40,800 bases of DNA from a virus, in the IMG/VR virus record IMGVR_UViG_3300030098_004294, positions 1 through 40,800 of that record; one strand, written 5' to 3'. Both the position numbers and the translations under genes were made by a program. A model generated the notes under the pieces. That model saw only the letters and a program-made list of their open reading frames with translations. It did not search any database and was not told the origin of the DNA. Shown one piece after another: positions 1,996-40,800 of this stretch. Position 1 is the first letter of the stretch; each line of letters opens with the position of its first letter.

Positions 1996-2003
1996 GTAGG
2001 ATG

Positions 2004-2420: not shown

Positions 2421-2447
2421 TAAAAATAAAGGAGATTACTCTCCTTT
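2421..2447 (-). terminator. Terminator whose loop carries the stop codon
   Basis: AAAGGAGA and TCTCCTTT pair (2428-2435 with 2440-2447), followed by A-UUUUU in the leftward RNA. The loop GTAA (2436-2439) contains the UAA stop of the gene at 2436-2603, so its last codons build the stem. Confidence 0.85.
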
Positions 2448-2603: not shown

Positions 2604-2624
2604 TTTGCCTCCTTTTAATTGAAC

Positions 2625-2650
2625 TAAAAAAAAGGGAGACTAAGCTCCCT
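2625..2650 (-). terminator. Intrinsic terminator
   Basis: AGGGAG/CTCCCT stem (2633-2638 with 2645-2650), six-base loop, then at least seven U (2626-2632). It lies eight bases past the stop of the gene at 2658-2834. Confidence 0.85.
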
Positions 2651-2657
2651 AATTTGT

Positions 2658-2834
2658 TTAATGTTCTCTCATACCTGCTAATACTTGCATTTTATTACAT
2701 ACTTGAAATGCTTTATCCTCAGAATGAGTTTCTAAATATACTGTTCCCTTACTACCGACTACTCTATACTTAGTATGATATTCAGGGAATGTTGTTGTTT
2801 CATTAACCGATTTAACTTGTATAATATGATACAT
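2658..2834 (-). CDS. Hypothetical protein, 58 aa
   Basis: I chose the ATG at 2832-2834 (M-Y-H-I-I-Q-V-K) because GGAG sits upstream at good spacing. The region before it aligns with the repeated promoter-like element (CTCCT, ATGTATA, GGAG), so an ATG inside that element, giving eight more residues, is unlikely to be the start. The product alternates hydrophobic and charged residues (T-K-Y-R-V-V-G-S-K-G-T-V-Y-L-E-T) and then has a helix (D-K-A-F-Q-V-C-N-K-M), resembling a small beta-beta-alpha domain. No family recognised. Confidence 0.62.
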   Translation of the reverse strand: MYHIIQVKSVNETTTFPEYHTKYRVVGSKGTVYLETHSEDKAFQVCNKMQVLAGMREH

Positions 2835-2861
2835 TACCATCTCCATTTTGTTATACATAAA

Positions 2862-2893
2862 GGAGAGAAAAGAATAGGATTTACCTACTCTTT
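2862..2893 (-). terminator. Terminator overlapping the membrane-peptide stop
   Basis: AAAGAGTAGG pairs with CCTATTCTTT (2884-2893 with 2869-2878, one G-U pair), followed by U-rich bases. The five-base loop holds the UAA stop (2881-2883) of the 32-residue membrane peptide. Confidence 0.8.
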
Positions 2894-2979
2894 GCCCTTT
2901 TGTGAAATACTGCTACGCATATAGCAAAAATAGCTATATATATCATCAGACCTAAATAAACGAACAATATGTATTGCAT
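2881..2979 (-). CDS. 32-aa single-span membrane peptide
   Basis: ATG at 2977-2979 with AAGGA upstream. After M-Q-Y-I-L-F-V-Y-L the peptide continues through about 22 hydrophobic residues and ends H-K-R-A-K-S-R. One transmembrane helix with a basic cytoplasmic tail is expected by the positive-inside rule. Its stop codon sits in the terminator loop, and the promoter-like element precedes it, as for its neighbours. Small membrane peptides in phage early regions often modify the host envelope or exclude other phages, but no specific role can be read here. Confidence 0.55.
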   Translation of the reverse strand: MQYILFVYLGLMIYIAIFAICVAVFHKRAKSR

Positions 2980-3007
2980 ATTTTTTCCTTATTTATCTAT
3001 ATATAAA

Positions 3008-3036
3008 GGAGAAAAGAAGGCTTTTACACCTTCTTC
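3008..3036 (-). terminator. Terminator with stop codon in loop
   Basis: AAGAAGG/CCTTCTT stem (3029-3035 with 3014-3020 on the leftward RNA), eight-base loop including the UAA of the gene at 3024-3236 (3024-3026), then UUUUC. Confidence 0.75.
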
Positions 3037-3236
3037 TCTTTTGGTAGCATACTCTCTAAGTATTTATCATACTCTTCTTGTAGCATCTGTTCTATATCGA
3101 AATCTAGCTCTCTATCTGCTCCTGTTTCTGCCCACTTTATCTCTAACTCATCAATATTATCCTCACACCATTTAATAAATCGTCTCTCTTCTAGTTCTCG
3201 CATAAACTCACTGATTCCTACGCTGATATGTTCCAT
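3024..3236 (-). CDS. Acidic hypothetical protein, 70 aa
   Basis: Very acidic 70-residue protein (I-D-E-L-E-I-K-W-A-E-T-G-A-D-R-E-L-D-F-D-I-E), predicted mostly helical, with a basic end (P-K-E-K-K-V). GGAGG lies six bases upstream of the ATG. The promoter-like element at 3251-3266 precedes it. Small acidic early phage proteins can mimic DNA or bind basic host proteins; that is speculation here. The last codons and the stop form part of the downstream terminator. Confidence 0.62.
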   Translation of the reverse strand: MEHISVGISEFMRELEERRFIKWCEDNIDELEIKWAETGADRELDFDIEQMLQEEYDKYLESMLPKEKKV

Positions 3237-3265
3237 TATACCTCCATTTATTTATACATTAAGGA

Positions 3266-3290
3266 GAAAAAGAGAGCTATTACGCCCTCT
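3266..3290 (-). terminator. Terminator with stop codon in loop
   Basis: AGAGGGC pairs with GCTCTCT (one G-U pair), loop GTAATA containing the UAA of the gene at 3280-3570, followed by UUUUC. Its loop is identical to that of the terminator at 3611-3640. Confidence 0.82.
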
Positions 3291-3570
3291 TCTCTAGTTT
3301 AATGGACAATTTTGGTACCTTAAGCAATAGTTTACGATACCAAGGTATGTTTGCCTTAGCTCTGGATAACTTATACCTTAAATTAGCTATTTCATCACAA
3401 AGCTCATTTATCTTATCGTCTTTAGTATACAATTCCTTGGTTAAGTCATCATTTACTTTAGATAAAGAGCAAAGTAAACTATTAGCTATGCTTAAGTTAT
3501 CTTCAGGACTAAAAACATATGGCTTATCCATATCACATATTCTTACATCTTGATAGTGTTTATTATTCAT
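3280..3570 (-). CDS. Hypothetical coiled-coil-containing protein, 96 aa
   Basis: Unrecognised 96-residue protein. The N-terminal 35 residues are mixed; residues of about 38-75 form a charged heptad-rich helix (L-T-K-E-L-Y-T-K-D-D-K-I-N-E-L-C-D-E-I), followed by a basic tail. GAGG precedes the ATG at acceptable spacing, weaker than in its neighbours. Unlike them, its leader after the ATGTATA element is longer (about 40 bases) and the SD does not face the CTCCT. Its C-terminal E-K-R-A and stop codon are built into the terminator. Confidence 0.6.
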   Translation of the reverse strand: MNNKHYQDVRICDMDKPYVFSPEDNLSIANSLLCSLSKVNDDLTKELYTKDDKINELCDEIANLRYKLSRAKANIPWYRKLLLKVPKLSIKLEKRA

Positions 3571-3610
3571 TTGTTACCTCACTTGTTATTGAAATTTACT
3601 ATACATTTAG

Positions 3611-3640
3611 GAGAAAAAGAAGGCTATTACGCCCTCTTTC
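3611..3640 (-). terminator. Terminator with stop codon in loop
   Basis: GAAAGAGGGC pairs with GCCTTCTTTT-type bases including G-U pairs. The loop GTAATA holds the UAA (3627-3629) of the gene at 3627-3854, followed by U-rich sequence. Confidence 0.8.
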
Positions 3641-3854
3641 TCTTTAAAGTATCTTTCATATCATTAATATCCATTTTCATACTTTGTTCTAAATGCCTTA
3701 CTATTAAATCTAAAGCTTCATCTCTTTTGTGAAGCTCAGGACCATAGTATTGCATTAATACATTATGTACAATAGTTCTTATGTAAGATGTACTAAATAC
3801 AACAGGATTACTTAGATTATCTATAATCGCTTTCATTATTTCTTTATCATTCAT
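3627..3854 (-). CDS. Hypothetical helical protein, 75 aa
   Basis: Unrecognised. It begins M-N-D-K-E-I-M-K-A-I-I-D-N-L and ends K-R-K-R-A, and looks all-helical with a basic tail. TAGGAG lies five to six bases before the ATG. The upstream leader is the best copy of the repeated element (TGTATAAATAAAT), where CTCCTA faces TAGGAG and could hide the SD in a hairpin. Its stop is in the terminator loop. It is the first long protein gene of the leftward train from the divergent promoter. Confidence 0.62.
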   Translation of the reverse strand: MNDKEIMKAIIDNLSNPVVFSTSYIRTIVHNVLMQYYGPELHKRDEALDLIVRHLEQSMKMDINDMKDTLKRKRA

Positions 3855-3883
3855 AACAACTCCTATTTATTTATACATTTAGG

Positions 3884-3913
3884 AGAAAAAAAGAGGTAGG
3901 TTTACACCTCTTT
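3884..3913 (-). terminator. Terminator ending the hairpin-rich leader
   Basis: AAAGAGGT/ACCTCTTT stem (3906-3913 with 3890-3897), loop with the UAA of a six-codon ORF, then seven U (3886-3889 and beyond). It would end transcripts that start at the divergent promoter before they reach the first long gene. Confidence 0.85.
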
Positions 3914-3922
3914 CGTTATCAC
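3902..3922 (-). CDS. Possible 6-aa leader peptide (MITKEV)
   Basis: A GTG at 3920-3922 follows a perfect AGGAGG by eight bases and opens six codons (M-I-T-K-E-V) ending in a UAA within the loop of the adjacent terminator. Leader peptide followed by terminator is the layout of an attenuator, although no run of one amino acid points to a specific signal. It could equally be the remnant of a deleted gene, since neighbours end with the same stop-in-loop design. Confidence 0.3.
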   Translation of the reverse strand: MITKEV

Positions 3923-4159
3923 AAGGATAACCTCCTATGGTCGCTCTTGTTTTGTTATTATCAACCAACTAATACTTGTGTCACCACTACAAGCGTTACT
4001 CTGTTGGAATCACGAACTATACAAGTCGTCACCTGTATAGAAAATACTATCTTCAGAGTCCGATAGTATTATGGAATGTACGCAAGCATACAATCCATCT
4101 GTCTATACATAAAGGAGTATATGCTACTAACTAATAGTATGGATTTATGAATAATGTGT
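3923..4159 (-). other. Non-coding hairpin-rich leader
   Basis: No gene is visible here. The leftward transcript from the promoter at 4166-4194 would contain an eight-base-pair hairpin ATACTATC/GATAGTAT (4062-4069 with 4044-4051), a seven-base-pair hairpin CTATACA/TGTATAG (4034-4040 with 4017-4023), and a CCAAC/GTTGG stem enclosing CTTGT/ACAAG further on, before reaching AGGAGG and the terminator. It looks like a small structured RNA of about 250 nt or a long attenuator leader. I saw no tRNA features. Confidence 0.5.
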
Positions 4160-5074: not shown

Positions 5075-5861
5075 GCTTGTTAGGACCATAAATGGGATGA
5101 AGAGAACCTACTTTGTCTATAAGCAAGCAGAAGCTGATAATGAGGGATTAGACTACGAACATTGGAAAGAAGCATCACCTGGTCAGTATGCACTAACAGA
5201 TGATGGATATGTGGGTAGTTGTATCAGTAGGAAGGATTATACTGATAAACAGGGAAGGTCAAAGACCTTTGTAAAGCTATGTTGTGGAGTAGGATGGGCT
5301 AATAACAAGGCAAAGATACTATATGAACCTAATAAAGAGTTTGGATTGTATAGCCAAGTTAAGCCAGACTACTGGATTCGTAGAGAAATAAGAACAACTC
5401 GCTTTAAGAACGCTGTGACAGCGTATATTGAGCAGTTATTAAGCTCAAAAGCAATAGACTGGACTGTTATTGGTAATATATACAGGCCAGAACAACGGAT
5501 TCCAGAGGCAACCGTTAGAAGATTATTCAAACAACAAGAGGTAAAAGAGGTGATTGAAGAAAAATTAAAAAAAGTTCTACAAGAAAAGGGTATAACTCAA
5601 GATATGGTGCTAGATTTGCATCTTGAAGCTATTAATGTAGCTAGAGATAAGAAAGACCCTTCAAATATGCTACGAGCTACAGAGAATCTTATGGATCTGT
5701 TGGAAATGAAGCCAGGAAAGAAGGTTATTACAGAATCTGTAGAATTTGGACTATCTTCAAATATTACGGAGCAGATTGAATCAGAAGAAAAGAAATTAAA
5801 GCTATCTCAAAAAACAGAAGAACCAATAAAGAATGAGTCAACAGACAGCAGAGAAGAATAA
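5067..5861 (+). CDS. terS: Terminase small subunit (putative)
   Basis: The segment around residues 130-215 reads like a small terminase: a DNA-binding-like helical part (I-P-E-A-T-V-R-R-L-F-K-Q-Q-E-V) followed by oligomerisation-type helices with N-V-A-R-D-K-K-D-P-S-N-M-L-R-A, a pattern seen in small subunits of marine and P22-like phages. It recognises viral DNA and feeds it to the large subunit. The N-terminal 100 residues are unfamiliar, making it longer than most. The start is a GTG overlapping the zinc-ribbon stop by eight bases, without an SD, so coupling is likely; an ATG at 5098 is possible. The end overlaps the large terminase by 29 bases. Confidence 0.7.
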   Translation: MDKLVRTINGMKRTYFVYKQAEADNEGLDYEHWKEASPGQYALTDDGYVGSCISRKDYTDKQGRSKTFVKLCCGVGWANNKAKILYEPNKEFGLYSQVKPDYWIRREIRTTRFKNAVTAYIEQLLSSKAIDWTVIGNIYRPEQRIPEATVRRLFKQQEVKEVIEEKLKKVLQEKGITQDMVLDLHLEAINVARDKKDPSNMLRATENLMDLLEMKPGKKVITESVEFGLSSNITEQIESEEKKLKLSQKTEEPIKNESTDSREE

Positions 5862-7338
5862 AGCTCTAGAAAAATTAAAGGATAACATGATATTGTTTGG
5901 GAAAGTAGTGGTTCCCAATATGTTTTCCTCTGATTCTCCCGAATTCCATTATGATGTCACAAAACATCTAATGAATAAGTCTTTAAAGCAAATCAATATA
6001 ATTGCACCTAGGGGACATGCTAAGTCATCTATTGTTGGTGGTATATTCCCATTATGGCATATTATGTTTGAAAAGGGACCAAAGCTAATTGTGTTAATAT
6101 CAAGAACGCAGGACCATGCTGTCAAACTGTTAGGTACAATAAAAGATATATTGGACTATTCTACTAACTTTAGGCAGTTATTTGGTTATTGGGGAATGAA
6201 TTCAGCTAGGTCTTGGGCTAAATCTGAGGTAGAATTAAAAGACGGAACGATGATAATATGTAAAGGTACAGGCCAACAGCTTAGAGGAATAAAGCATGGG
6301 AACCAAAGACCTACATTAATTATACTAGATGACCCAGAAGATGAGAATAATACAAAAACAGCTGAAGCGATGGAAAGTAATCTAAGATGGTTACTGCAAT
6401 CAGCTATACCAAGTCTAGACCCAAACAAGGGTAGGATTGCTATTATTGGAACACCTATACATCAAAGATGTATTGTTGAAACATTAAAAGAAATGAGTGG
6501 ATGGAAAAATTTACTATACAAGCCAGATTTAGATAATAATGTAGCACTATGGGAATCTTGGCATCCGATATCAAAATTAAAGCAAAAGAAGAGAGAATTA
6601 GAATCAATTAACAGAGTTTCTGTATTTTATAGAGAATACATGTGTGAAGTAGTTGGTGATGAAGACCAGCTATTTAAAGAAGAATATATTAATTATTATG
6701 ATGGTAAGCTCATTCATGATAGTTCAGGAAATTCATTTTTAAAAATATCATATATCAACCACTCTGATACTAATGAAGAACGACCCGTAAATGTCTTCAT
6801 GGGAGTTGATCCAGCGTCCTCAACAAGACAAACCGCCGACTATTCAACAATCGTGCCAGTTGCAATAGATACCGAAGGAAATCGTTTTGTGCTGTCCTAT
6901 TACCGAAAACGGGCAACTCCCATGGCATTAGCAGAAGCTATACTGGAATATTTTAAGATATATAAACCTGAGAAAGTTCGAATAGAGTCAGTTGGATATC
7001 AGGAAATGCTACGAGAATATGTTAAAGTTAGATGTGAAGAACAGAATATGTTTATTCCAGGTCTTGAAATAAAAGAAAATCCAAGAACATCTAAATCTAT
7101 CAGACTTGAAACAATGGAACCCTACTTTGCTCAGAACAAATTCTACATGAGAAAAGATATGCGAGAGTTAAAAGATGAACTGTTATTATACCCAAGAGGT
7201 AAACATGATGACCTACTAGATGGACTATACTATGCGACTAAGAAGATATACCAACCATTTCACAAAAAACAAGATAAAGATGAGGCTTCTACAAAAAATT
7301 CAAGTAAAAAGCAAGATAATTCTTGGCTAACTGCCTGA
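5833..7338 (+). CDS. terL: Terminase large subunit
   Basis: DNA-packaging motor and nuclease. The ATPase part shows a Walker A of the form A-P-R-G-H-A-K-S-S (about residues 59-67) and a Walker B L-I-I-L-D-D-P-E-D (about 163-171). The C-terminal RNase H-like nuclease shows G-V-D-P-A-S-S (about residue 325) and K-H-D-D-L-L-D-G-L near residue 455, supplying the acidic metal ligands. At 501 residues it is of normal size. It pumps DNA through the portal encoded next and cuts concatemers. The gene overlaps the small subunit, the usual arrangement. Confidence 0.95.
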   Translation: MSQQTAEKNKALEKLKDNMILFGKVVVPNMFSSDSPEFHYDVTKHLMNKSLKQINIIAPRGHAKSSIVGGIFPLWHIMFEKGPKLIVLISRTQDHAVKLLGTIKDILDYSTNFRQLFGYWGMNSARSWAKSEVELKDGTMIICKGTGQQLRGIKHGNQRPTLIILDDPEDENNTKTAEAMESNLRWLLQSAIPSLDPNKGRIAIIGTPIHQRCIVETLKEMSGWKNLLYKPDLDNNVALWESWHPISKLKQKKRELESINRVSVFYREYMCEVVGDEDQLFKEEYINYYDGKLIHDSSGNSFLKISYINHSDTNEERPVNVFMGVDPASSTRQTADYSTIVPVAIDTEGNRFVLSYYRKRATPMALAEAILEYFKIYKPEKVRIESVGYQEMLREYVKVRCEEQNMFIPGLEIKENPRTSKSIRLETMEPYFAQNKFYMRKDMRELKDELLLYPRGKHDDLLDGLYYATKKIYQPFHKKQDKDEASTKNSSKKQDNSWLTA

Positions 7339-7402: not shown

Positions 7403-9601
7403 ATGCCAGAAAAAGATCCGATGGTCCAAATGACCACAGACCTACTTCAAGAGTATGCATCTGCACGCTCTGAGTGGGCAAAACAATCTACCGAAGACAA
7501 TGAATTTAGAAATGGACTGCAATGGAAATCAGAGCAAGTTACTACTCTTAGAGAACGAGCTCAAGAACCAGTTGTTGTAAATGTAGTACATTCAGCAGTT
7601 GAGCAAGCAAAAGCAATGCTCACAACTAATAAACCAAGATTTCAATCTACTGGAAGAGAGACAAGTGATGCTAGAACGGGGAGAGTATTCTCAGATATTA
7701 TGGCTTGGATATGGGACAATTCGAATGGAAATACAGTATTAAAGCAAGTTGTTGATGATTATTATGTAAAAGGAATGGGTGTAATGTATACATATTACGA
7801 CCCTAATGCTGACCTTGGTAAAGGTGATGTTGTATTAAAATCGATTAATCCTCATGATTTATATATAGACCCAGCGTCTAAAGACCCATTCTGTAGTGAT
7901 GCTGCTCATTTGATCATTGCTAAAAAACATATGAAGTCACAACTTCTCCTCGAGTACCCTGATTATGCAGAAATCATTGAATCAGCAGTTCAAACAAGTT
8001 ATATCTCTCCCGAAACCACGACTCGATTTGGGCTGTACGATGAGCAGACCACTACAACAGTAGGAAACGATAGACGACTAGCAGATGATGATATAGAATT
8101 AGAAGTTATTGAAAGATATACAAAAATAAAAATGCCATATATAAGAGCATTTGATCCGACAGCTAATCAAGAAGAGATTATGACGGAAGAAGAGTTTAAG
8201 GTATATATACAGCAACCAGCATTTATAGTAACTACACCTAAAGAGAAAAAGATAATTACAGATAGAGGTGAGGTGGTAAACTATATGAATCTATATGAAG
8301 AGACTGATGGTATATATCACATGGTTCCAAACCCTACAACGGGTCAACCAATGATGCAGCCAGGAGATGTTAGTCCTAATATGATACCTGATTCTACTCA
8401 TGTTTTAGAAAAAACAAACTTTGAGCAGTTAATAAAAGAAGAAATTATTATTGTAAATAACATTATAGTAGATAGAGTTGAATGTTGTGTATCTGTAGGT
8501 GACCATAAGCTATATAGTGTTGTTTATCCAATAGAGCATTATCCTATTATTACTATAATGAATAGGCATAATAGAAATCCATATCCATTATCAGATGTAA
8601 GATTGGTAAAAGGATTGCAAGAGTATATAAACAAGATAAGAAGTCTAATAGTAGCCCATGCTTCTTCTTCAACAAATGTTAAATTATTAATACCTAGAGG
8701 TTCAATGAATAAGAGAGAGCTTGAATCTGAATGGGCTAGAGCTGGCACAGCTGTAATCGAATATGACCCTGAACTTGGACAGCCAATAGTGGCAGGTCCT
8801 GTTCCATTGCCAAATGAATTATATAAGAATGAAGCTGATGCTAAAGCAGATATTGAAAGAATTTTAGGAATTTATGCTTTAATGCAAGGAGATCAAGGCT
8901 CTGCACCACAAACTTACAAAGGTACAGTTGCGATGGATGAGTTTGGTCAAAGAAGAATTAAGTCAAAGAAAGATGATATTGAAGCTGGATTAAATCAAGT
9001 AGCTAAAGTTGTAGTTCAATTAATACAAGCGTACTACACAAGTGATAAAGTGATACGATTAATGCAGCCAAATGCTCTTCCAAAAGAAATTAGAATAAAT
9101 CAAGATATATATGACCCAGTTACTAATGCTTTTATTGAAAGGCTATATGATGTAACTGTAGGAAAATATGATGTAATTGTTGTATCTGGTTCAACTCTAC
9201 CATCAAATAGATGGGGAAGGTTTGAATACTATATGGAGCTATATCGAAATGGTATAGTAGACCAAGTTGAAGTATTGAAGCAAACTGATGTAGCTGATAT
9301 GGAAGGTGTTCTTGAGAGAGCTGACCAGAGAAATCAAATGTCAAGCCAGATACAAACATTAACACAAGAGCTAAAACGAATTAAAGGTGATTTACAGACT
9401 GCTCAAAGAGAATCTGTACATGACCGTAAGCGTGTTGAGCTAAAAGAATTTGAGAAAAAATTAGCTAAAGCCGAAGCTAAAATCGAGATGGCCTCTCAGT
9501 TATATAAGAGCAGAAGTGGTGATGAGCTCTCTAAATTGAAAGAAGCTGTTCGAGAAGTTCAAAAAGGCGAAAAAGAAAAAGGAATCGTACCGATTCCATA
9601 A
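7403..9601 (+). CDS. Portal protein (P22-like)
   Basis: The 732-residue protein begins with a segment containing N-G-L-Q-W, then R-A-Q-E-P-V-V-V-N-V and a long helical wing, features of P22-type portals. Its C-terminal 100 residues are a Lys/Glu-rich helix (from about Q-I-Q-T-L-T-Q-E-L-K), resembling the barrel or coiled-coil extension of podovirus portals. Twelve copies form the vertex ring through which DNA enters and leaves. The upstream SD is weak (TAGGAA); the 64-base gap holds an inverted repeat TTTTACTT/AAGTAAAA. Position after terminase and before scaffold supports the call. Confidence 0.9.
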   Translation: MPEKDPMVQMTTDLLQEYASARSEWAKQSTEDNEFRNGLQWKSEQVTTLRERAQEPVVVNVVHSAVEQAKAMLTTNKPRFQSTGRETSDARTGRVFSDIMAWIWDNSNGNTVLKQVVDDYYVKGMGVMYTYYDPNADLGKGDVVLKSINPHDLYIDPASKDPFCSDAAHLIIAKKHMKSQLLLEYPDYAEIIESAVQTSYISPETTTRFGLYDEQTTTTVGNDRRLADDDIELEVIERYTKIKMPYIRAFDPTANQEEIMTEEEFKVYIQQPAFIVTTPKEKKIITDRGEVVNYMNLYEETDGIYHMVPNPTTGQPMMQPGDVSPNMIPDSTHVLEKTNFEQLIKEEIIIVNNIIVDRVECCVSVGDHKLYSVVYPIEHYPIITIMNRHNRNPYPLSDVRLVKGLQEYINKIRSLIVAHASSSTNVKLLIPRGSMNKRELESEWARAGTAVIEYDPELGQPIVAGPVPLPNELYKNEADAKADIERILGIYALMQGDQGSAPQTYKGTVAMDEFGQRRIKSKKDDIEAGLNQVAKVVVQLIQAYYTSDKVIRLMQPNALPKEIRINQDIYDPVTNAFIERLYDVTVGKYDVIVVSGSTLPSNRWGRFEYYMELYRNGIVDQVEVLKQTDVADMEGVLERADQRNQMSSQIQTLTQELKRIKGDLQTAQRESVHDRKRVELKEFEKKLAKAEAKIEMASQLYKSRSGDELSKLKEAVREVQKGEKEKGIVPIP

Positions 9602-10625: not shown

Positions 10626-11942
10626 ATGGCCGCTAAAAATTTAGCCGCAAGTGGTGTCCTTTATACTGACAGACGAGATTTCTACATCGACCCTCAAGTT
10701 GTTAAAGAACTTTGGACTGATGTAGCACCTTTCACGACTGTTATTTCTAATAAAGAAACACGACAAACTAATGACCCTGTATTTAAGATGTTTGAACATC
10801 GTAATCCATGGGTAAAACAAAAGTTCGTTAATGCAGGTGAGACTGAAACAATCGCTGCTGATGGAACTGAAAGCAATGCATTGAACATTGATGGTATAGT
10901 TGGACTAGACTCAGATGTTACAGATGCATGGGAAGGTTTAGTTTGTGAGATATGGAATTCAGCAGAAACAACTAAACAAGCAATCGTATTAATCACAGAC
11001 AAAGTAGATGCCGATGAAATTAAAGTTAAAGCTTTATGGACTAATGGTGGTGGTAATTATACTTTGGTTAATGATGATGTTTACCATGTAGTTGGTAATG
11101 CACAAGGTGAGGGTGAAACAGCTCCTGAAGCTTGGTCTGATGAGTTAAAAGTTGTTTATAATTCTTGTCAGATTTTCAAAACTCCTCTAGAAGTTACAGG
11201 TACATTATTACAAGCTTCACTTAGAGGTGAGTCATCTGAACTTGCTAGATTAAGACTGCAAAAAAACCAAGAACATAAAATGCAAAAAGAAAAAGCATTT
11301 TTATTTGGTGCTAGAGTTGGTGGTACTGGTTTAGGTGAGTCTTATGATGGCACTCCAGACGAAACTTTCGCTGATGGTGGAAGAACTGGTGCTGGTGGTG
11401 GATTAGTAAGAACTACTTATGGTATAGTTTCTGCTTTAGATTACTATGGTAATACAAGTGGGGATGACCAAAATGTATTTACTGTTGACTCATCATACAC
11501 ATATAGCAACTTTGTAGATGATATGGAAAAAGTATTTCAATATGTTCCAACATCTGGCGTTAAGCGTGCTTTTTGTGGTGCTGGTGCTTTAGGTTACTGG
11601 TCAAAAATGGCTGGTTCTGAAGGATTTGCTGGTGGTTCTGGTTGGACAGTTAATCTAAGTGATATGAAAAGAGATACACTTGGATTTAACTATAAAGTTC
11701 TAGAAACACCTCATGGCATGTTACAGTTAATACCAACGCCTGCATTAAGAGGTCCTTACAATAAGTATATGATGGCTATAGACGATGAGAACATGTTTCA
11801 TGCACAATATCGTTCGCCAATGTATCAAACTAATATCAAGACTGATAATGGTTATGATGGTGTTAAAGACCAGTACTTTTCTGATGAAGGAATAGGTATT
11901 TCACTAATCGAATCTCACAGTCTGTTTAAAATCACAGCATAA
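10626..11942 (+). CDS. Major capsid protein
   Basis: A 438-residue protein after the scaffold gene, with GGAAGGAGA before the ATG. The N-terminal arm includes V-F-K-M-F-E-H-R-N-P-W-V-K-Q-K-F, and a long-helix region contains Q-E-H-K-M-Q-K-E-K-A-F-L-F-G, features I associate with the capsid family of SU10-like podoviruses (HK97 fold). The Gly/Thr/Val-rich region between about residues 80 and 190 may be an inserted beta domain on the capsid surface. It forms the icosahedral shell. The identification rests mainly on position and size; the family link is tentative. Confidence 0.82.
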   Translation: MAAKNLAASGVLYTDRRDFYIDPQVVKELWTDVAPFTTVISNKETRQTNDPVFKMFEHRNPWVKQKFVNAGETETIAADGTESNALNIDGIVGLDSDVTDAWEGLVCEIWNSAETTKQAIVLITDKVDADEIKVKALWTNGGGNYTLVNDDVYHVVGNAQGEGETAPEAWSDELKVVYNSCQIFKTPLEVTGTLLQASLRGESSELARLRLQKNQEHKMQKEKAFLFGARVGGTGLGESYDGTPDETFADGGRTGAGGGLVRTTYGIVSALDYYGNTSGDDQNVFTVDSSYTYSNFVDDMEKVFQYVPTSGVKRAFCGAGALGYWSKMAGSEGFAGGSGWTVNLSDMKRDTLGFNYKVLETPHGMLQLIPTPALRGPYNKYMMAIDDENMFHAQYRSPMYQTNIKTDNGYDGVKDQYFSDEGIGISLIESHSLFKITA

Positions 11943-28094: not shown

Positions 28095-31000
28095 ATGACC
28101 AATCCTTATGCAAACAGGGTAAATTCTCTAATAAATACTTATAGAGCTAATCCTCATTTATTTAATGATGACCAGTTAGATGAGTTACAAGAATTAGCTG
28201 ACCAATCTGGGATAAATTTTTCTCCCATTAGGCAAGAGTTTCGATTAAGAGATGTTGTTGAACAAGCCTCAGCAGGTTTCTTTGAAGGCTTGACTACAAT
28301 CCCTATAGGTGAGAAACCTAGAACAACTTACGAAAGCATTGCCCACTCCCTTGGTCACTTGGCAGGCTTCGCTCCTGGAATACTTGCATCCCCTTTAAAA
28401 CTCGCTGCCAAAGGTGTAAGGAAACTAGGAGCTGAAGCCTTGGGTGAGGGAATAGAATATGGAGCTCAAGTAGCTAGTAGAAACATATCAGCACCAATGT
28501 TATTTGGTGATTGGGTTACTCAGAAAGGATTTGAAGCTGGTTTAAAGAAATCCAAAATGGAAACTTTAGACTTTATGAAGAAAGGTGCAGCTACACGATC
28601 CATTGCACAGCAATCTGTTCATCTAGCATCTGCCTCAGCAATGTCTGCTATATGGAAAGGTCCTGATGAAATAATGAATTCATTTATATATGGTGGGGCT
28701 GCAGGTGCTATGTTTGGTGGTTTAGGTGAATTCACAGCTGTTGGTAATCTATTAAAAAGCAACAATGTTATTCATCATAAGAAAGCAGAACAGCGTATTA
28801 AATCAGCTATAGGTGCTTCAATGTTAGGTGGTCCTGCTGCAATTAGAGGTGAACCTATTGAATCAATCTTATACGAAACTTTACTTGGTGGATATTTCGG
28901 ATATAAATCAAGACCTGCACATGAAGCTGAAGGTGGTAAGTTTATACAAGATTTAGCTTATTATCCAGAGCGTGATATAATATTTAGACCTGAGAAGCAT
29001 CCTAATTATAAAGACTATTCTAAGAAAACTAAAGAGTATATTATGGATACTTCTGTAGAGCAATCAAAAACATATCTTATAAATCAATATCCTGATATAT
29101 CTAAGGCAGATTGGGATAAACATTTCAGGTTAATTGCAGAGCAAGATTATGGTAAGAATCCAACACAAGAACAAATTAATAATGTTGCTAGACAAGAAGC
29201 TAATCAACACTACTATGGAAATTTTGAATATGTTAAAAATCAATTTGAAACCCCAAATCCGTCCGTAGAGGACCCTTATGCTAGACAAGAGGATATGGAC
29301 CACTCAGTGGAGATCCCTCCTAAAACAAGCAATTTAGACGCTCAAAAGGCTAGATTGAAGGATAATCCTGTGTTCATAGTAGATGTTAGTGGTGAAATGG
29401 TCCTTATTCAAGGTAAAGTTGGAAACTTTAAAGGTAAGAACTTAGGGGATAAAAGAGTTGATAGACCTTTAACCAATTTACAAGGTCAAAATTTTACAGA
29501 ATTACAATATGTATACTTACCATCTAAAGGTTTATTTCAAAAAGGTGTAAAGCCATTAAAAGTACAGATGGAATATGACAAGGTAACAAAAACTACCAAA
29601 TTAGTACCTGTTATGAAAGCTAATGACTGGTTTAGATTGGGTAACAATTTAGACAGACAGAATTACTATATATATGGTGGTGTAAAAGATAAAGGTACTT
29701 TAACTGTAAAGCAGTATCATCTTGATTATGGACAACATTCAGTTGAATCTTTAATTAAAGAATTAGCCAGAACACCACAAGAAGCTAGAGAATTAACACA
29801 ATCCTACAAAGATAGTTTACAATTAGAAGCTGAATGGTACAATAGAAGCATTGATGAAGTTAGAGGCTTACATGATAGGAAGTGGGTTTCTAATGTACTA
29901 TCTGACGGTACTGAACAAGGATTGTATAGAACTGGCAGTGGAGATTTAAGTCAGATAAATAGATTGATGAACACTGATTACTTTATTAAGAATGTTGTTG
30001 ATTTTAACAAACGACAACAACTACCTAATGATAAAGGAATACCATTACCTGCTGATACTTTTCCTGGTCCATTAAAAACTATCATACTAAATGATTATAT
30101 TGATGTAAAGTCAGATGCGTATAAAGTAAAAGACTCTAAAGGAAATATTGAAACAAAATATAATGAAAGTAATACTGATGGTACTATACTATTTACTCCT
30201 GACAAATTCAATACAATGATGAAGAAGATGGGTTTACCAACTAAAAATGTTAGTATGAATAAACCTGTTATTGTATGGAGGCATGGTAATGGTGTCTTGC
30301 AAGTTAAAGCAGCTGGAGCTGTAGCAGATGGACCTATGTTAGATTTGATGAAACAAAAAGGTGTTGATGTTGCAATATTTAAGAGTGCTGCTAAACAAAC
30401 AGGTGAGTTAAAATCTCACGACTATTGGTATGTAGAAGGTAATAAAAAGTATGGTTCCGATTTTGAAGCTCAAGATATATTAAACTTAGACCCTACATCT
30501 ATTAGAATAAATACAAATACATTTGAAAATCCAAAGAGAATGTATGGTACACATTTTGTAAGACAATTCTTTGGAAATTTAAACGAAGTTCAAAATCCAA
30601 AAGTCTTAGATATGGTATTCAATGAGTACTTTGTTAAGTCCTATGAAGGTACTACAAAAGCTAAAGAATCTATAGATAAATACTTTGAAGGATTACAACA
30701 AGGGAAGGATATAGAATTAAAGAATATAAATATAGATGACATTCCTTTGAGTTATATACATAGAATATATGATGCACATTTTAATACTAAAGCTGGAAAA
30801 ATGCTTAGAGATCAAATCTTCAAGTTAGAGAAAGAAGGTAAATTAGAACTCGTAGATGATTTTACTCAATCGGAATACAGAGATTGGTTAGCAAGAAATG
30901 ATAGGATGATAGAGATATCTGAAGCAAGTGAATCTGTTGTTAAACTATTTAAGCATACTAGGAACTATGCAGATAAAGTATATAAGAAGTATTTAATAAA

Positions 31001-34000
31001 GAGATTACTATCTCCTAAGTATAAATACTCTGCTAAATCTTGGTTATCACCTAAGATGCCTCACTATGAAGTAAAAGAAGGCACATTTAAGGCTTTAAAA
31101 GATTTTAATCCAACAGTCCGTGTTGGTGAAAAGGATATGAAACTACAAGAACTATGGAGTTTATATGAAAAAAACCCTAAACAATATCAAGAGTATCTTA
31201 AGTTCGCTGTCATTCGTGTTCCTGCTGATAGTGTTAGTGGTGCTCGGAGCCTTATATTTGATGGTTATCTTGCTGAAAGAGGGACTGGTGTTGTTACTAA
31301 AAACAATGACAACACTTATCTGGGCGGTGCAGACAAAGATAGTGACACTGTATTTCTCTACCAAGGATTAGATAAATCAATTCATAAAACTTTAAAAAAG
31401 AATAGTAAGGAATGGCAGGATAAGAATGATGTTTGGGTTGATAGTGCTCCAAGCGAATCATTAACAGGTAAGCCTGACCCAAGATTTAAAACAACTGGTA
31501 GTAAGTTCTCTCCTTCTATGAGAATGATAGTAGCTTCAACTGCAGCTAAAGGTAATGAAGGTCTTGGATATTCAATGACTGCTCGTAATACAATGCAGAC
31601 TTGGATTGATATTCTAAATAAGAACAATGGGGAATTAAAAGGTAATGTTAATTGGACTACAAGTAAAGGTTCTAATATTACAGGAACATATACTTTAAAG
31701 CTAAAGAATAATGGTGCGGAACTTAGAAGGTTAGCACGAGAAATGATTAATACAAGTGCTGACGCTTCTAATTATCCTAATATTACAGATTATATTAAAT
31801 GGCGTGATATGATGTTTAATAGTGCTTTTGAAGGTACATTCAAAGATACTATTGAGAAGACACCTAGAAAGATTACATTTAAAGATTTAAAGAATAAAAC
31901 TGATTTAGGCGTTACTCATTCTCTTCAAAATACTTTAGACCCTAAAGGTGTTTATTATAATAAGTATTCAAAAGAGCAAAGAGGATATACATTAGGTGAA
32001 TTTCAATCTCAATTAAGAAATGAAGCCTCTAGATTACATAAAGATTCTAATAATAATTACAGCAAGATAGCTAAGAAGGCAGTTGAATATGGATTAACTA
32101 AGCCATTAAGAATGGATGCTATAGAGAATTACCATAAACTTCTTGTTGAGGGCTCTAAAACAGTTATAAATGCATCAGGTAAAGATAGAGATTTTATTAG
32201 AAAACATCTAACTAAACTAGTGAGAATACCAATTTTTAAACTTGATAAAGCTATTGAAAAAGCAAAAAGAACAGGTGATTGGGAACAAGTTATGGAATTT
32301 GTTAGCAACGATACCTTTCTTGTCGCTAGTAATAATGCTTTATCTAAAAAAGGATTTAAAATATATAGAGAATTTATTGAAAATGGAGTTAAAGATCCAA
32401 TCAAAGAGGGAATTTTTGATAAGATGTTAAACCATATTTCAGATAGAGCTTTTAAGATAAAAGATAGATATAGAAGATTAGATTTAACTGAAACTGGGCC
32501 TAAAGATTCAGTTTTTAAAGGCTATGACAAGGAAATAAGAGACTATAAAACTCAACTTATTCAAGCTGCAGTTCGAAATGAAATCGATCCAAAGCTATTA
32601 ACTGAGTACTTTGATTTATGGCTTATAAGTCCATTTAAACCTTATAAAACCTATATACAAGAAGGTAAATCAAAAGGTAAGTTTGTTCTCACAAAAGAAC
32701 CATATGAAACTACTAGTGGTCCAAGTAGACATGCAATACAATCTCAAGAGATAACAAATAAATCTTGGAAGGAAGTATTGACTGAGTATGAGAATATATA
32801 TCAGAATATCAAAGAGAAAGCTATTACAGGGCAGGTTAAAGAACCTGTGTTATTTAGTTTACCTAAAGATTATAATACTCCTTTAAGTAAGCCTGAACAA
32901 GCTAATACAGTAAAAGATTTAGTCGTCGTAAATACAACGAAACAATCTCCTTTGAAAAAGCAGGAAACTTTAGATAGAGTTTATACTCGTAAAGCTTTAG
33001 GTCCAAAAGATTTCAAAGAGCTTGAAACATTTAAGAAAAATTTAGAATCCTATTCTCCTGAACCCAATAGATTGGTAAATGAATTTACATTAGAACAATT
33101 AGGTAGACCAAAAGATTTAAGCCAGTTAAACATGAATGATGTAAAAGCTATGAATCTATACTTTAAGGACATGGATGGTAGGTTTGGTGGTGATGGAATA
33201 CCTAGTTGGGTATATTGGGCAGACCCAAAATATGTTGATGAATATATGTGGAATAAAGAGAAGAGTTATTTCCAAGCTGGATATAATCTCAAGACAGCAT
33301 CTGGTCCTAATAAAGCTATGTTCAAAGGTGTTGGAACATTAGGTACTCTTCGTAGTTGGTTCAGACAAACCAATAGACAGATGGATGTATATACTGATGC
33401 AATTCCTGACATTAACAATGATAAATATAATTACAGGTTAGAACTTACTCCTAATGAATCATTAGCTGTTGATAAGGGAATTGTCAATAAGATTGAAAGT
33501 AAGAACTTTAAAGTTGAGAAGAAATATACAGATAAGACATATACAGTACAGAATAAGAAATATACATACCAAGAATTAGTAGATAAGTATTCTGATATTA
33601 TGTCTAAAGATTTAGAACAGTTTGGTAATGAATGGTTATTTGCTAAAAGCAAAGATGGTAAATCTATTGATTGGAAAACTGTAGATGAAGTTAAGAAATG
33701 GAATAACCCTTTAGAGATAAATGAATATCTAAAATATGATTCTAAAGGTAGATTTGATGAAATGAACTTTATTAAAAAGTCAGTTATTCCTGGAGATCGT
33801 GGTGGTAGAGTTCCTATTATACATTTAGAGAATATCTATAGGTTTCAGTATGAGTATAAACTAAATAGAATCGTAGAAGATAAAGGACTGAAAGGTCAGT
33901 CTGCTATTAAGTTTAGACAAGATTATAGGAAGAAAAACAAATTTGAAGGATTAGATAGAATCCCTACTGGTGAGTATTTCCCTCATATGAACTTTGGTTG

Positions 34001-36119
34001 GAATAAGGGAGCAAGGCGTGAGATAGCAAGCCATATTGAAATGAGAGGTGAGCAAGTATATAAAGAAGCTATTGCTCAAGGGCTCTCTGAAAGAAAAGCA
34101 TTACAAGCTAAAGCAGGCAAGATTGCTGAGTTAGAAGCTAAATGGCAAGCATCTGAAGCTGAAGCTGGTGGTATGGATAAACATGCTATTGATGATATGC
34201 TTTCTAGGATTAACTATAAAGAACTTAGTATAAATGAGATTGCAAACAATCCTAAACAGATTGCATTTAATACTAGACCTGAGAATGTTTTATCTCGTAG
34301 TGAGAACCTTCCAGGATATGATATTCGTTCATCTGTTATTGATACATATAAAGAGAAAGTCATTAGAGCTCATTATCGTAATCTAGGCTCTGTAATGGCT
34401 AACTATAGAATTGATACAATGATAAAAGAAAATCCTTTTGGAGATTTTACTAAGCAACAATTTAAGAAATTCAACCCAGACCCTAATAGCCCATTATTTA
34501 AGAATTGGTCTGAGGTTTGGGGAGATTATTTAAGATTCTATGTAAGAGATTCTTTTGGACATATGACTACATTTCCAGAAAGAATAGTTCAGTCTATGAA
34601 GCATGGAGATCCATTAAAATTGAAGAATACTTTATACCATGGTATGAGCGACCAAAAGGTAATAAAGGGCTTAGAATGGATGGATAAACGATTTCGGAAG
34701 TTAGGTATGAAAATGCCTTTCATGGCCGATTTGCCACAAATTACAGCCAAAAAAGGCACTCCTGAGTATTTTAAGCAGGTTAACAACCGTAAAGAGTATC
34801 TATCTGACGCTATCCATAAGTTTGGTAAGCTTGAAGCTAGATATGAGCTGTTAACCTTATTAGCAAATACAGGTACCTTAACTGCTAATTTATTTGGTGG
34901 TACTACTATGACACTATCATCTGCAGGATTTAGAAATTATAGAAGAGCTCGTAGTTTTAAATGGATGAAAGACAATGTGTTATTTGATAAAGCAGGAAAT
35001 CCTTTATTAACCTATGTGAACAATCAAGGTAAAAAGATTTCTGTTAAGACCAAGAAAGATTTATATAAGTGGGTACAAGACCAAGGTGTTATTGATAATT
35101 TCATAGCTGATGAATTAAATACTAATGTTAGATTGAAGTCTGCTATGGCTAAGAATGCTAAGGCATCTAGAGATTTTATGAGAGATTTAAGAAAACTACT
35201 TAAAGAAAATCCTGAAGTTAAAGATGAAACAGTATTTGAGTTAGCTGATAGATATGGCATGAAAGATGCAATGCTAAAAGCTGGTGGATGGTTTATGCAA
35301 GCATCTGAGCGTACATTAAGAAGAGACTCTTTCTTGGCTCATGCCTTACAAGCTAAAGATAGATTAGGTATGGCAGGTAGAAATATGTCATTAAATGATC
35401 CTTATCTTATAGATGCAGGTTTAAAAGGTGTAGAAGCTACACAATTCCTATATCATAGTGCATTCAGACCTGCATTTATGAGAACATCTTTAGGGAAAGT
35501 TGCAACTAGATTTAAGCTCTTTGCATTTCAATCTGTTAGAACTAGAAAAGAATTATTAAGAAGAGCTAAATATTATGGATACAAGCCAGGAACTAAGGCT
35601 TATGAAAATATGAAGAATTTATTTATGATGGATATGTTGACATTAGCATTAGGTTCGTTATTGCCATATAGTCTATTTGATACTGCATTACCTCCTCCGT
35701 ATGATTGGTTACAAGAAACATCTGAATTGTTATTTGGTGATAAAACTCAACGAGAAAGAGCATTCTTTGGAACATACCCAAGAGCTATTGCTCCTTTACA
35801 GATAGTAACACCTCCTTCTGCAAGAGTTGTTATTGCTCCTATAAAGGCGTTATTCAATTCAGATTGGGATAGATTTATGGATTATCATCTACATACTATG
35901 TATCCATTTGGAAGGATTCTTAGACAAGTTGATAAAACAATATATGACCCTGATGCTGGAAAGTTTGAAATAATTAATGAACAAAGATATGGAACTACCT
36001 TTGGTAGATTTATGCAACAATTTTTTAGACTACCAACTGATAAAGTAAAGCGACTATATGATAGAGCTCAGTTGGAAGATGAGAGAGAAGAAATAATCCG
36101 TAAGGCATTAGGAGATTAA
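28095..36119 (+). CDS. Giant virion protein with RNA polymerase-like double-psi beta-barrel motifs (2674 aa)
   Basis: Domains in order. Residues 1-250: membrane-active-looking, Gly/Leu-rich. About 695-770: N-T-D-G-T-I-L-F-T-P, K-P-V-I-V-W, V-L-Q-V-K (K738), then F-K-S-A-A-K-Q-T-G (K763, K767). 1041-1084: R-V-P-A-D-S-V-S-G-A, then G-G-A-D-K-D-S-D (D1080, D1082, D1084). 1150-1235: E-G-L-G-Y-S, then I-N-T-S-A-D-A-S-N-Y-P. In single-chain RNA polymerases of crAss-like phages the order is a lysine barrel, then R-(I/V)-P-x, G-A-D-F-D-I-D, G-x-G-I-A, and V-D-A-x-K-x-P. Residues 1900-2674 are helical and resemble the C-terminal part of other very large phage virion proteins. Predicted role: a DNA-dependent RNA polymerase packed in the capsid and ejected with the genome. 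The D-x-D-x-D is D-K-D-S-D here, unlike D-F-D-G-D or D-F-D-I-D. AGGA and the ATG immediately follow the previous stop. Confidence 0.7.
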   Translation: MTNPYANRVNSLINTYRANPHLFNDDQLDELQELADQSGINFSPIRQEFRLRDVVEQASAGFFEGLTTIPIGEKPRTTYESIAHSLGHLAGFAPGILASPLKLAAKGVRKLGAEALGEGIEYGAQVASRNISAPMLFGDWVTQKGFEAGLKKSKMETLDFMKKGAATRSIAQQSVHLASASAMSAIWKGPDEIMNSFIYGGAAGAMFGGLGEFTAVGNLLKSNNVIHHKKAEQRIKSAIGASMLGGPAAIRGEPIESILYETLLGGYFGYKSRPAHEAEGGKFIQDLAYYPERDIIFRPEKHPNYKDYSKKTKEYIMDTSVEQSKTYLINQYPDISKADWDKHFRLIAEQDYGKNPTQEQINNVARQEANQHYYGNFEYVKNQFETPNPSVEDPYARQEDMDHSVEIPPKTSNLDAQKARLKDNPVFIVDVSGEMVLIQGKVGNFKGKNLGDKRVDRPLTNLQGQNFTELQYVYLPSKGLFQKGVKPLKVQMEYDKVTKTTKLVPVMKANDWFRLGNNLDRQNYYIYGGVKDKGTLTVKQYHLDYGQHSVESLIKELARTPQEARELTQSYKDSLQLEAEWYNRSIDEVRGLHDRKWVSNVLSDGTEQGLYRTGSGDLSQINRLMNTDYFIKNVVDFNKRQQLPNDKGIPLPADTFPGPLKTIILNDYIDVKSDAYKVKDSKGNIETKYNESNTDGTILFTPDKFNTMMKKMGLPTKNVSMNKPVIVWRHGNGVLQVKAAGAVADGPMLDLMKQKGVDVAIFKSAAKQTGELKSHDYWYVEGNKKYGSDFEAQDILNLDPTSIRINTNTFENPKRMYGTHFVRQFFGNLNEVQNPKVLDMVFNEYFVKSYEGTTKAKESIDKYFEGLQQGKDIELKNINIDDIPLSYIHRIYDAHFNTKAGKMLRDQIFKLEKEGKLELVDDFTQSEYRDWLARNDRMIEISEASESVVKLFKHTRNYADKVYKKYLIKRLLSPKYKYSAKSWLSPKMPHYEVKEGTFKALKDFNPTVRVGEKDMKLQELWSLYEKNPKQYQEYLKFAVIRVPADSVSGARSLIFDGYLAERGTGVVTKNNDNTYLGGADKDSDTVFLYQGLDKSIHKTLKKNSKEWQDKNDVWVDSAPSESLTGKPDPRFKTTGSKFSPSMRMIVASTAAKGNEGLGYSMTARNTMQTWIDILNKNNGELKGNVNWTTSKGSNITGTYTLKLKNNGAELRRLAREMINTSADASNYPNITDYIKWRDMMFNSAFEGTFKDTIEKTPRKITFKDLKNKTDLGVTHSLQNTLDPKGVYYNKYSKEQRGYTLGEFQSQLRNEASRLHKDSNNNYSKIAKKAVEYGLTKPLRMDAIENYHKLLVEGSKTVINASGKDRDFIRKHLTKLVRIPIFKLDKAIEKAKRTGDWEQVMEFVSNDTFLVASNNALSKKGFKIYREFIENGVKDPIKEGIFDKMLNHISDRAFKIKDRYRRLDLTETGPKDSVFKGYDKEIRDYKTQLIQAAVRNEIDPKLLTEYFDLWLISPFKPYKTYIQEGKSKGKFVLTKEPYETTSGPSRHAIQSQEITNKSWKEVLTEYENIYQNIKEKAITGQVKEPVLFSLPKDYNTPLSKPEQANTVKDLVVVNTTKQSPLKKQETLDRVYTRKALGPKDFKELETFKKNLESYSPEPNRLVNEFTLEQLGRPKDLSQLNMNDVKAMNLYFKDMDGRFGGDGIPSWVYWADPKYVDEYMWNKEKSYFQAGYNLKTASGPNKAMFKGVGTLGTLRSWFRQTNRQMDVYTDAIPDINNDKYNYRLELTPNESLAVDKGIVNKIESKNFKVEKKYTDKTYTVQNKKYTYQELVDKYSDIMSKDLEQFGNEWLFAKSKDGKSIDWKTVDEVKKWNNPLEINEYLKYDSKGRFDEMNFIKKSVIPGDRGGRVPIIHLENIYRFQYEYKLNRIVEDKGLKGQSAIKFRQDYRKKNKFEGLDRIPTGEYFPHMNFGWNKGARREIASHIEMRGEQVYKEAIAQGLSERKALQAKAGKIAELEAKWQASEAEAGGMDKHAIDDMLSRINYKELSINEIANNPKQIAFNTRPENVLSRSENLPGYDIRSSVIDTYKEKVIRAHYRNLGSVMANYRIDTMIKENPFGDFTKQQFKKFNPDPNSPLFKNWSEVWGDYLRFYVRDSFGHMTTFPERIVQSMKHGDPLKLKNTLYHGMSDQKVIKGLEWMDKRFRKLGMKMPFMADLPQITAKKGTPEYFKQVNNRKEYLSDAIHKFGKLEARYELLTLLANTGTLTANLFGGTTMTLSSAGFRNYRRARSFKWMKDNVLFDKAGNPLLTYVNNQGKKISVKTKKDLYKWVQDQGVIDNFIADELNTNVRLKSAMAKNAKASRDFMRDLRKLLKENPEVKDETVFELADRYGMKDAMLKAGGWFMQASERTLRRDSFLAHALQAKDRLGMAGRNMSLNDPYLIDAGLKGVEATQFLYHSAFRPAFMRTSLGKVATRFKLFAFQSVRTRKELLRRAKYYGYKPGTKAYENMKNLFMMDMLTLALGSLLPYSLFDTALPPPYDWLQETSELLFGDKTQRERAFFGTYPRAIAPLQIVTPPSARVVIAPIKALFNSDWDRFMDYHLHTMYPFGRILRQVDKTIYDPDAGKFEIINEQRYGTTFGRFMQQFFRLPTDKVKRLYDRAQLEDEREEIIRKALGD

Positions 36120-38865: not shown

Positions 38866-39047
38866 GGTAGTAACTTTCTCCATAATGATACACTAAAACT
38901 TACCTCAAAAGGGCCAATACCAGCACTAAGCTGAATGTGATCTCCTTTTTCTATGGTAAATATAACTGATATTGAGAACAACCACAAGATAACTAATGTA
39001 TAGCCATACACATTCACTTTATTGTTTATTTCTTTTATCTTAAACAT
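38862..39047 (-). CDS. Single-span membrane protein (61 aa)
   Basis: Residues of about 13-32 (V-Y-G-Y-T-L-V-I-L-W-L-F-S-I-S-V-I-F-T) form one transmembrane helix after a basic N-terminus. The C-terminal part is beta-like. Start at 39045-39047 overlaps the primase-helicase stop by eight bases with GGAGG upstream, and its stop overlaps the next start. It is part of the replication unit. Role unknown; membrane attachment of replication proteins is one idea. Confidence 0.55.
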   Translation of the reverse strand: MFKIKEINNKVNVYGYTLVILWLFSISVIFTIEKGDHIQLSAGIGPFEVSFSVSLWRKLLP

Positions 39048-40800
39048 TCTTAACCTCCATGAATCTAAAGGTTTCATAATCAAATGATAACGCTACTTGA
39101 AATCTTGCTTCATCTCTTGACTTTAAAGACCTTATTATTCTTTTCTTTGTGTCTCTTTCGCCCATAATACCTATTATTTTATCTGCTTTCTGCTCTATTA
39201 CTGAATTACCTTTTGCACTATGAACAGATAGTCTAGAATCAAATGATGCACCTTTACTTATATGGCTTACACCAATAACTATGATTCCTTCTTGTACTGC
39301 AAGCTGTTTTAATTCGTTAATAATCTTCTCCATCTTATTAAATGGGTCATTATTATATTCAGCTCTAATACCATCAACAGTATCAATAACTACTATTTTA
39401 GGGCTAATATCAGTGATTAATTGCTTCATTGAACCTATTTCAGGTGATGCTGTCATTATGTTTATGTGTTCTATTGGTAGTAATGCATCTTTTAACTTAT
39501 CATTCATATCTATTGAGTGCAAGTCTACAACTTTCTCTTTCTTTATTCCATTTGCTATTTGCACAAATCTCCTATAGATTAAATGGTCATGTACCTCTAA
39601 AGATAGGTACAAACAACTTAATCCAGGATTAGATACAATCAAGTTCTGTATCCATGCAGTCTTACCAAGACCTGTATCACCTATTAATATAGCTAGTTCT
39701 CCAGGATAGAATGTGTAATTGGTTCCGATATTGTACATATCCTTTAGATTGAATGAGTTTGTACTAAAGTCCTTATTTACAAATTCTGTAAATCTCTTAC
39801 TCATATCATCTGGAGTTATTACATCTAATGTATAGTCTTTTCTCTTATAAAACATACATTTAGAATCGCAAAACTCTGCCATTATTGGATCTATACAGCT
39901 ATATCTATAACCTTTTTCTACAACATAATCTACTATTCTGACTATTTCATGATATTCTAAAGTATTTACATATGTTGATGCTAAAGCGTAACAACCTTGT
40001 ACGCTAATACCTTTACGAATCCATGCACTAACCATCCTAAGTAACATATTATGTCTTCTACCTTGTACAACATTATCTGACATCTTTTGAACACAAGTTA
40101 CATGTCCATTATATTTGTTAGATGTCGTTTTTGGTTTCTTATCTAACACAATTTTAGTATCTAATGATACAATGTTACTATTCCATATTGCTGGAGTATC
40201 TTCTATTTCATTGTGTTTGAATTCCTTTCTTATAAAACTTTTAGATAAATCTACTATATCATCATAGTTTAAATTATGAATCTCCCATATTTGCAATGGA
40301 GTTTTATATAACTTAGATTTCATATTATAAGAATAACCAACTCTAATAAGCCTAGCGTAATCATATATACTATCTGCTACACTGCCAAATTCCTTTTGTA
40401 TTGTTCTTTTTACAACTTCTGGAGTTTGTTTACTTACTTCAAATCCATATAAATCAGGTATTTCAACATGAAAACCTCTTCCACTGAACCATATTCTGAA
40501 AAATGCTGGGTCAGCTCCTTTATCTTCTAGTAAATGCAAGAAATATCTAATATCAGTCATTACCTTGTCTTTACTATTAGTACCTTTATCTATATCGAAA
40601 GTAAGTCTATCAAGCTCAAAAGTTCCATCATAAGAACGGATTGTTTTATTTGCTTGGAAATGGTCTACTGCAGAGTTATCTAATCTATATAAACTTCTAT
40701 ATAGTTCAATATCAGGTTTTAGATATCTCGCTAGCTCATTAACTTTACAGATGTTCCCTCTATTGGAAACACCTCCTACTGCAACTTCTATGTACTGGTT
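39040..40800 (-). CDS. Primase-helicase fusion, 5' end beyond the window
   Basis: The frame is open to the right end, so 586 residues are seen and the start is missing; an internal ATG at 40558-40560 is not the real start. Visible residues 65-115 carry F-D-I-D (68-71) and F-S-G-R-G-F-H-V (105-112), the h-D-h-D and s-x-H motifs of archaeo-eukaryotic primases. A cysteine cluster follows (C-I-D-P and C-D-S-K-C, about residues 302-315). The RecA-like helicase part has Walker A G-D-T-G-L-G-K-T (374-381) and a Walker B ending V-V-I-D-T (about 470-474). It primes and unwinds DNA during replication, leftward from upstream replication genes outside the window. Confidence 0.82.
   Translation of the reverse strand, partial: NQYIEVAVGGVSNRGNICKVNELARYLKPDIELYRSLYRLDNSAVDHFQANKTIRSYDGTFELDRLTFDIDKGTNSKDKVMTDIRYFLHLLEDKGADPAFFRIWFSGRGFHVEIPDLYGFEVSKQTPEVVKRTIQKEFGSVADSIYDYARLIRVGYSYNMKSKLYKTPLQIWEIHNLNYDDIVDLSKSFIRKEFKHNEIEDTPAIWNSNIVSLDTKIVLDKKPKTTSNKYNGHVTCVQKMSDNVVQGRRHNMLLRMVSAWIRKGISVQGCYALASTYVNTLEYHEIVRIVDYVVEKGYRYSCIDPIMAEFCDSKCMFYKRKDYTLDVITPDDMSKRFTEFVNKDFSTNSFNLKDMYNIGTNYTFYPGELAILIGDTGLGKTAWIQNLIVSNPGLSCLYLSLEVHDHLIYRRFVQIANGIKKEKVVDLHSIDMNDKLKDALLPIEHINIMTASPEIGSMKQLITDISPKIVVIDTVDGIRAEYNNDPFNKMEKIINELKQLAVQEGIIVIGVSHISKGASFDSRLSVHSAKGNSVIEQKADKIIGIMGERDTKKRIIRSLKSRDEARFQVALSFDYETFRFMEVKNV

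Follow-up and report, generated by a model that had tools for sequence, protein, structure and literature searches.

What does a giant open reading frame (ORF) near one end of a viral contig encode, and might its product be an RNA polymerase that travels in the virus particle? We examined 40,800 nucleotides of IMG/VR virus record IMGVR_UViG_3300030098_004294 (hereafter the window). An earlier note, made without database searches, had read the ORF as a virion-packaged single-chain RNA polymerase of the double-psi beta-barrel type. This overall reading is supported and appears largely right. The ORF likely encodes a single-chain two-barrel RNA polymerase, with a fold closest to that of gp66 of crAss-like phages, inside a giant late virion protein. 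We place the probability of this reading at about 0.84; activity and packaging are inferred. The features discussed are collected in Table 1.

Table 1. Positions of the features discussed, numbered from the first nucleotide of the window
Feature	Position	Strand	Remarks
Early region, hairpin and CTCCYTTWTKTATRA-like element before most minus-strand genes	958..4119	-	
Terminase large subunit	5833..7338	+	
P22-type portal protein	7403..9601	+	
SU10-type major capsid protein	10626..11942	+	
Giant ORF, 2674 aa, ATG start	28095..36119	+	predicted central single-chain two-barrel RNA polymerase
Conserved N-terminal region, aa about 12-285	28128..28949	+	Gly-rich; 34-36% identity in distant relatives
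Polymerase core as modelled, aa 480-1540	29532..32714	+	AlphaFold pLDDT 86.8, pTM 0.83; Foldseek top PDB match 6vr4
KNVVDFNKR, aa 632-640	29988..30014	+	matches YKNMVDFFKR of gp66
Lysine-bearing barrel (DPBB-B), predicted: D695, K723, K738, SAAK767	30165..30395	+	all four residues invariant, 55 rows
Aspartate-bearing barrel (DPBB-A), predicted: RVP 1041-1043 to GADKDSD 1078-1084	31215..31346	+	
Long helix with AAKGNEGLGYS, aa 1140-1176	31512..31622	+	putative bridge-helix counterpart; helix in model
EMINTSADASNYP, aa 1216-1228	31740..31778	+	D1223 invariant; trigger-loop candidate
Conserved C-terminal region, aa about 2053-2621	34251..35957	+	mostly helical; 32-44% identity in relatives
DnaB-like helicase, primase-like N-terminus	39040..40800	-	runs off window

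Motifs, predicted fold and likeness to gp66

Every motif named in the earlier note was found at the residues it gave. NTDG lies at 693-696 and includes D695, K738 and FKSAAK (762-767) follow, and both RVP and GADKDSD are in place; EGLGYS falls inside 1150-1167 and INTSADASNYP inside 1216-1228. The pattern D.D.D is present only once in the protein.

An AlphaFold model of the core, built from a 55-row alignment, is confident. Its top match in the PDB is the virion RNA polymerase gp66 of the crAss-like phage phi14:2 (6vr4; E 7.4e-9, probability 1.00). P23-45 gp64 (8f72) also matches with a probability of 1.00, AR9 nvRNAP and E. coli RNAP stand lower in the list, and the other listed matches are RNA polymerases as well. 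A viral structure library returned unnamed proteins as the best matches, followed by crAss-like proteins. The whole-chain TM-score against 6vr4 is low (0.33 of the query), and the match is therefore one of a shared core, as expected across divergent inserts. According to the model the overall two-barrel fold is present, while the placement of the aspartates relative to the lysines is inferred. The earlier note had held that a structure without two double-psi barrels would refute it; at the level of the predicted fold match, this is not what was found. The long helix (1140-1176) and the conserved segment at 1216-1228 stand in the order of a bridge helix and a trigger loop.

Sequence searches of Pfam, PHROG and PDB with the whole protein and with the core gave no polymerase match, and tblastn of the window protein against named phages gave nothing useful and found no crAss phage. 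The earlier note had proposed a profile search against gp66-type polymerases and YonO. Comparison by hhalign with single sequences of gp66, gp96 and YonO gave no match, in line with the published remark that, outside the DxDxD region, two-barrel polymerase families have little in common (PMC10770324). Whereas the single gp66 sequence gave nothing, a gp66-family profile of nine proteins aligned in register: RVP-GADKDSD is paired with RIP-GSDFDID, and the three aspartates with D1361/1363/1365. This alignment scored 49.6 (P 2.4e-4) with a probability of only 44%; 40 column shuffles scored no more than 21.8 and the reversed profile 19.1. Significant alignment to the family profile extends over about 80 columns only. 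A second, weaker segment, not significant alone, pairs KNVVDFNKR-NTDG-KP-K-SAAK with the corresponding part of gp66.

Residues conserved across the gp66 family (K893-R894, D962, K1012, K1027, K1065, R1322, P1324, G1359, D1361/1363/1365 and GGKSGVGI) occur in the same order as their counterparts in the window protein. K723, K738 and K767 are collinear with gp66 K1012, K1027 and K1065, and GGKSGVGIT of gp66 resembles AAKGNEGLGYS in the long helix. The polymerase would work as gp66 does, yet we do not file the window family in the Crassvirales gp66 family, because its core lacks extended sequence similarity to that family and its loop departs from D-[FY]-D-[IV]-D. No description of this polymerase family was found in the literature searched, and its inclusion among the 23 families of PMC10770324 is not excluded.

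Relatives and conservation

Scans of IMG/VR with the giant protein alone found no relative. With the terminase gene of the window as query, many related contigs were recovered, and their records carry homologous giant ORFs of 2650-3700 aa. Two relatives are alike over nearly the full length (56% and 38% identity); the others match mainly at the N-terminus (34-36%), in the core (about 25%) and at the C-terminus (32-44%). We aligned 11 full-length ORFs obtained through the terminase with the window protein, without selection for the motif. D1080, D1082, D1084, D695, K723, K738 and K767 are invariant in all of them, as are R1041, P1043, G1078, A1079 and D1223. Such invariance in relatives not selected for the motif places it beyond chance.

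When IMG/VR was scanned with the core alignment, 99 places were returned and 80 of them kept. One of the two patterns used contains GAD[VK]D, and the enlarged set is therefore no independent test of the first two aspartates. Only fifteen columns are invariant in the 55 non-redundant rows, the residues listed above among them. The catalytic loop reads DKD[S/A/I]D in 39 of the 55 rows (DKDSD in 18, DKDAD in 16 and DKDID in 5) and DVDGD in the remaining 16. A branch with full support sets the DVDGD rows apart as one clade, and the window falls together with L112. Two of the 12 cores in one alignment (A1) weakly match the endolysin profile phrog_938 (E 0.0013) and one matches a POTRA domain (E 1e-4); both may reflect inserts.

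One relative, with 34% core identity, comes from the single-cell genome Prochlorococcus sp. AG-436-M02, on a contig of 46 kb (QCPL01000010.1, 46,061 bases; L208 and L125 in our set), and another was found in a Flavobacteriaceae MAG. Finding a virus in a sorted cell or in a bin hints at the host without proving it. We infer that the phage group is marine from the Prochlorococcus and Flavobacteriaceae records only. On contig QCPL01000010.1 there are further genes for ERF, a helicase of the DnaB/AAA type and two 2OG-Fe(II) oxygenases.

Gene neighbourhood and early region

The polymerase gene closes a plus-strand block that holds the terminase, portal and capsid genes. In nearly all complete relatives the core and the C-terminal region are joined in one ORF. 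Several relatives have weakly hydrophobic, Gly-rich stretches at the N-terminus, and this region may be a membrane or ejection part. The C-terminal region weakly matches phrog_11358, a phage profile of 3431 positions with unknown function, which the C-terminal stretch matches in 18 of 44 members; a fold search of this region gave no significant PDB match.

Several side observations concern these genes. The giant gene of one relative (L195:6448-16179) is split into ORFs of 2456 and 600 aa, through a frameshift, a sequencing error or a true split. Among the 44 C-terminal members (alignment A3), two have a match to an AlkB-like domain of the 2OG-Fe(II) oxygenase type (E 3e-13), suggesting a repair enzyme within the giant protein; a residue-pattern search for the carriers did not pinpoint them. 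A metallophosphoesterase gene (phrog_221) lies inside the virion block at 20507-21280, and phi14:2 likewise carries one close to its tail genes. The ORF shortly downstream of the polymerase gene (36387-37436) weakly matches a peptidoglycan-binding domain (E 0.042) and is a possible lysin.

A T7-type polymerase was rejected as a candidate, as profile PF00940 is silent in the window and in six relatives and matches the positive control P-SSP7. The claim in the earlier note that the window contains no other polymerase thus held for the T7 type; the window is only part of the genome. Its phrase "podovirus-like" rests on the P22-type portal alone, and the support for "virion-packaged" consists of where the gene lies, its fusion to conserved flanks and analogy, without particle data. 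Because of the virion-block setting, the fusion, the lack of a T7-type polymerase, and the precedent of the crAss001 polymerase proteins and P23-45 gp96 as known virion cargo (PMC10172136, PMC10770324), packaging and injection are the likeliest role. That the polymerase is packaged and injected to transcribe early genes is thus likely by inference and analogy; neither packaging nor activity is supported by proteomic or biochemical data.

The early genes lie on the opposite strand, and most are preceded by a hairpin and an element resembling CTCCYTTWTKTATRA. Sites of the element are near 958, 1275, 2625, 2852, 2998, 3253, 3600, 3872 and 4104; most follow a predicted hairpin, and most lie about 15-28 bases upstream of a start codon. 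Allowing up to two mismatches, TTCTCCTWWATGTATA-like sites occur six times between 2852 and 4119 and once at 20632, with 0.36 expected in all. The nearest relative has 15 copies of CTCCCTTNTKTATRA with at most one mismatch, all on one strand (0.07 expected). In this relative (L003, 1288-7340), a hairpin and a CTCCYTTWTKTATRA-like element also precede most early genes. Counts of upstream 9-mers in seven other relatives revealed a clear element in the nearest only and none in the more distant ones; the element is therefore not a family-wide mark. It could be an intrinsic terminator of the preceding gene, a promoter of the following gene, or both.

Competing explanations and known systems

Sequence and prediction together show the fold, the correctly ordered invariant aspartates and lysines, and, across a large phage group, the joining of the core to conserved flanks. 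We consider it likely that they define a new family of single-chain two-barrel RNA polymerase, probably virion-borne, in phage records of about 40-50 kb. In the proposed mechanism, the polymerase would be packaged in the particle and ejected through the tail together with the DNA; the N-terminal region, rich in Gly, and the helical C-terminal region would help with packing or with crossing the envelope. Once ejected, it would refold and transcribe the opposite-strand early genes while no new phage protein has yet been made. Two magnesium ions would be coordinated by the three aspartates; the lysines would touch the phosphates of the NTP and the RNA.

Against this reading stand a loop, DKD[SAI]D, that is not the usual catalytic one and the absence of proteomic or biochemical data. 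The protein could be a two-barrel RNA polymerase that stays out of the virion, either made late for late genes or cleaved and retained in the cell. Particle data are lacking, and non-virion two-barrel polymerases exist in other phages, for example P23-45 gp64 (PMC10770324). However, almost every complete relative has the polymerase in one ORF with conserved flanks, where the virion block ends, and the giant fused polymerases characterised so far (the gp66 group and P23-45 gp96) are virion proteins, which makes this alternative unlikely. We regard as very unlikely that the barrels are kept without catalysis, in a structural ejection protein with an old polymerase fold. A lysine within the catalytic loop (DKDSD) is indeed unusual, and subgroups resemble each other more in the C-terminal region than in the core. 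However, across 55 divergent rows nearly every other position changes, and the three aspartates, the lysines, R1041 and P1043 do not.

Another two-barrel enzyme, such as a PolD-type DNA polymerase or a primase, is also very unlikely. PolD has the two barrels too (PMC10770324), but the fold search returns RNA polymerases with crAss gp66 on top, a bridge-like long helix and a trigger-loop-like segment are present, and a DnaB/primase-like gene is separate in the window. A chance motif in an unrelated giant protein is all but excluded. D.D.D is short and common; conservation in unselected relatives, the fold match and a profile score far above the shuffles refute this explanation, unless the model is wrong.

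Returning to the preferred reading of a virion-borne polymerase, a bolder version can be framed: a separate injected two-barrel branch with a lysine-bearing DKD[SAI]D loop would transcribe the early genes of a large group of small marine phages, of which some might have Prochlorococcus as host. Its members in the subgroup of the window would recognise the hairpin and the CTCCYTTWTKTATRA-like element ahead of each early gene. Taken jointly, we would lean against all of these parts being correct.

Virion-carried two-barrel polymerases are found in crAss-like phages, a Thermus phage and jumbo phages. If packaging is true, a second, large virus group may begin infection with an injected polymerase. 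The family is large (99 IMG/VR places in one scan), with records roughly half as long as crAss-like genomes. It brings new sequence diversity to the two-barrel polymerase clade that includes the RNA-interference polymerases, as well as a natural change in the catalytic loop that is directly testable. If a member infects Prochlorococcus, as hinted by one single-cell genome, a major primary producer of the ocean would have a phage that does not use the T7-type polymerase of known cyanopodoviruses.

YonO of SPbeta is likewise a single-chain two-barrel polymerase. However, it has 839 aa, is not a virion protein, carries DNDGD and gives no profile match. The N4 virion RNA polymerase is a giant injected polymerase, and the window polymerase would work alike. 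However, the N4 enzyme is of the T7 type, for which the window gives no profile match. P23-45 gp96 unites a two-barrel polymerase and a virion (tail-tape) protein in one chain, and AT-rich early promoters have been reported for P23-45, which the candidate element of the window may resemble. In gp96 the polymerase is N-terminal with a DFDGD loop, whereas that of the window is central; there is no sequence match, and the tail type of P23-45 differs from that of the window phage as far as can be told.

Crass-like gp66 differs in its loop, D[FY]D[IV]D as opposed to DKD[SAI]D or DVDGD, and in its N- and C-terminal regions, and full-length sequence similarity is not detectable. Genomes of crAss-like phages measure about 90-100 kb, compared with about 40-50 kb for the phage records of the window family, and no partner proteins of the gp65/gp67 type were identified for the window polymerase. 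In both families, however, the two barrels lie in a single chain within a giant protein whose gene adjoins structural genes, and the conserved elements follow the same order, KR...TD...K...K...K...R-P...G-x-DxDxD...GG/AxxGxGI.
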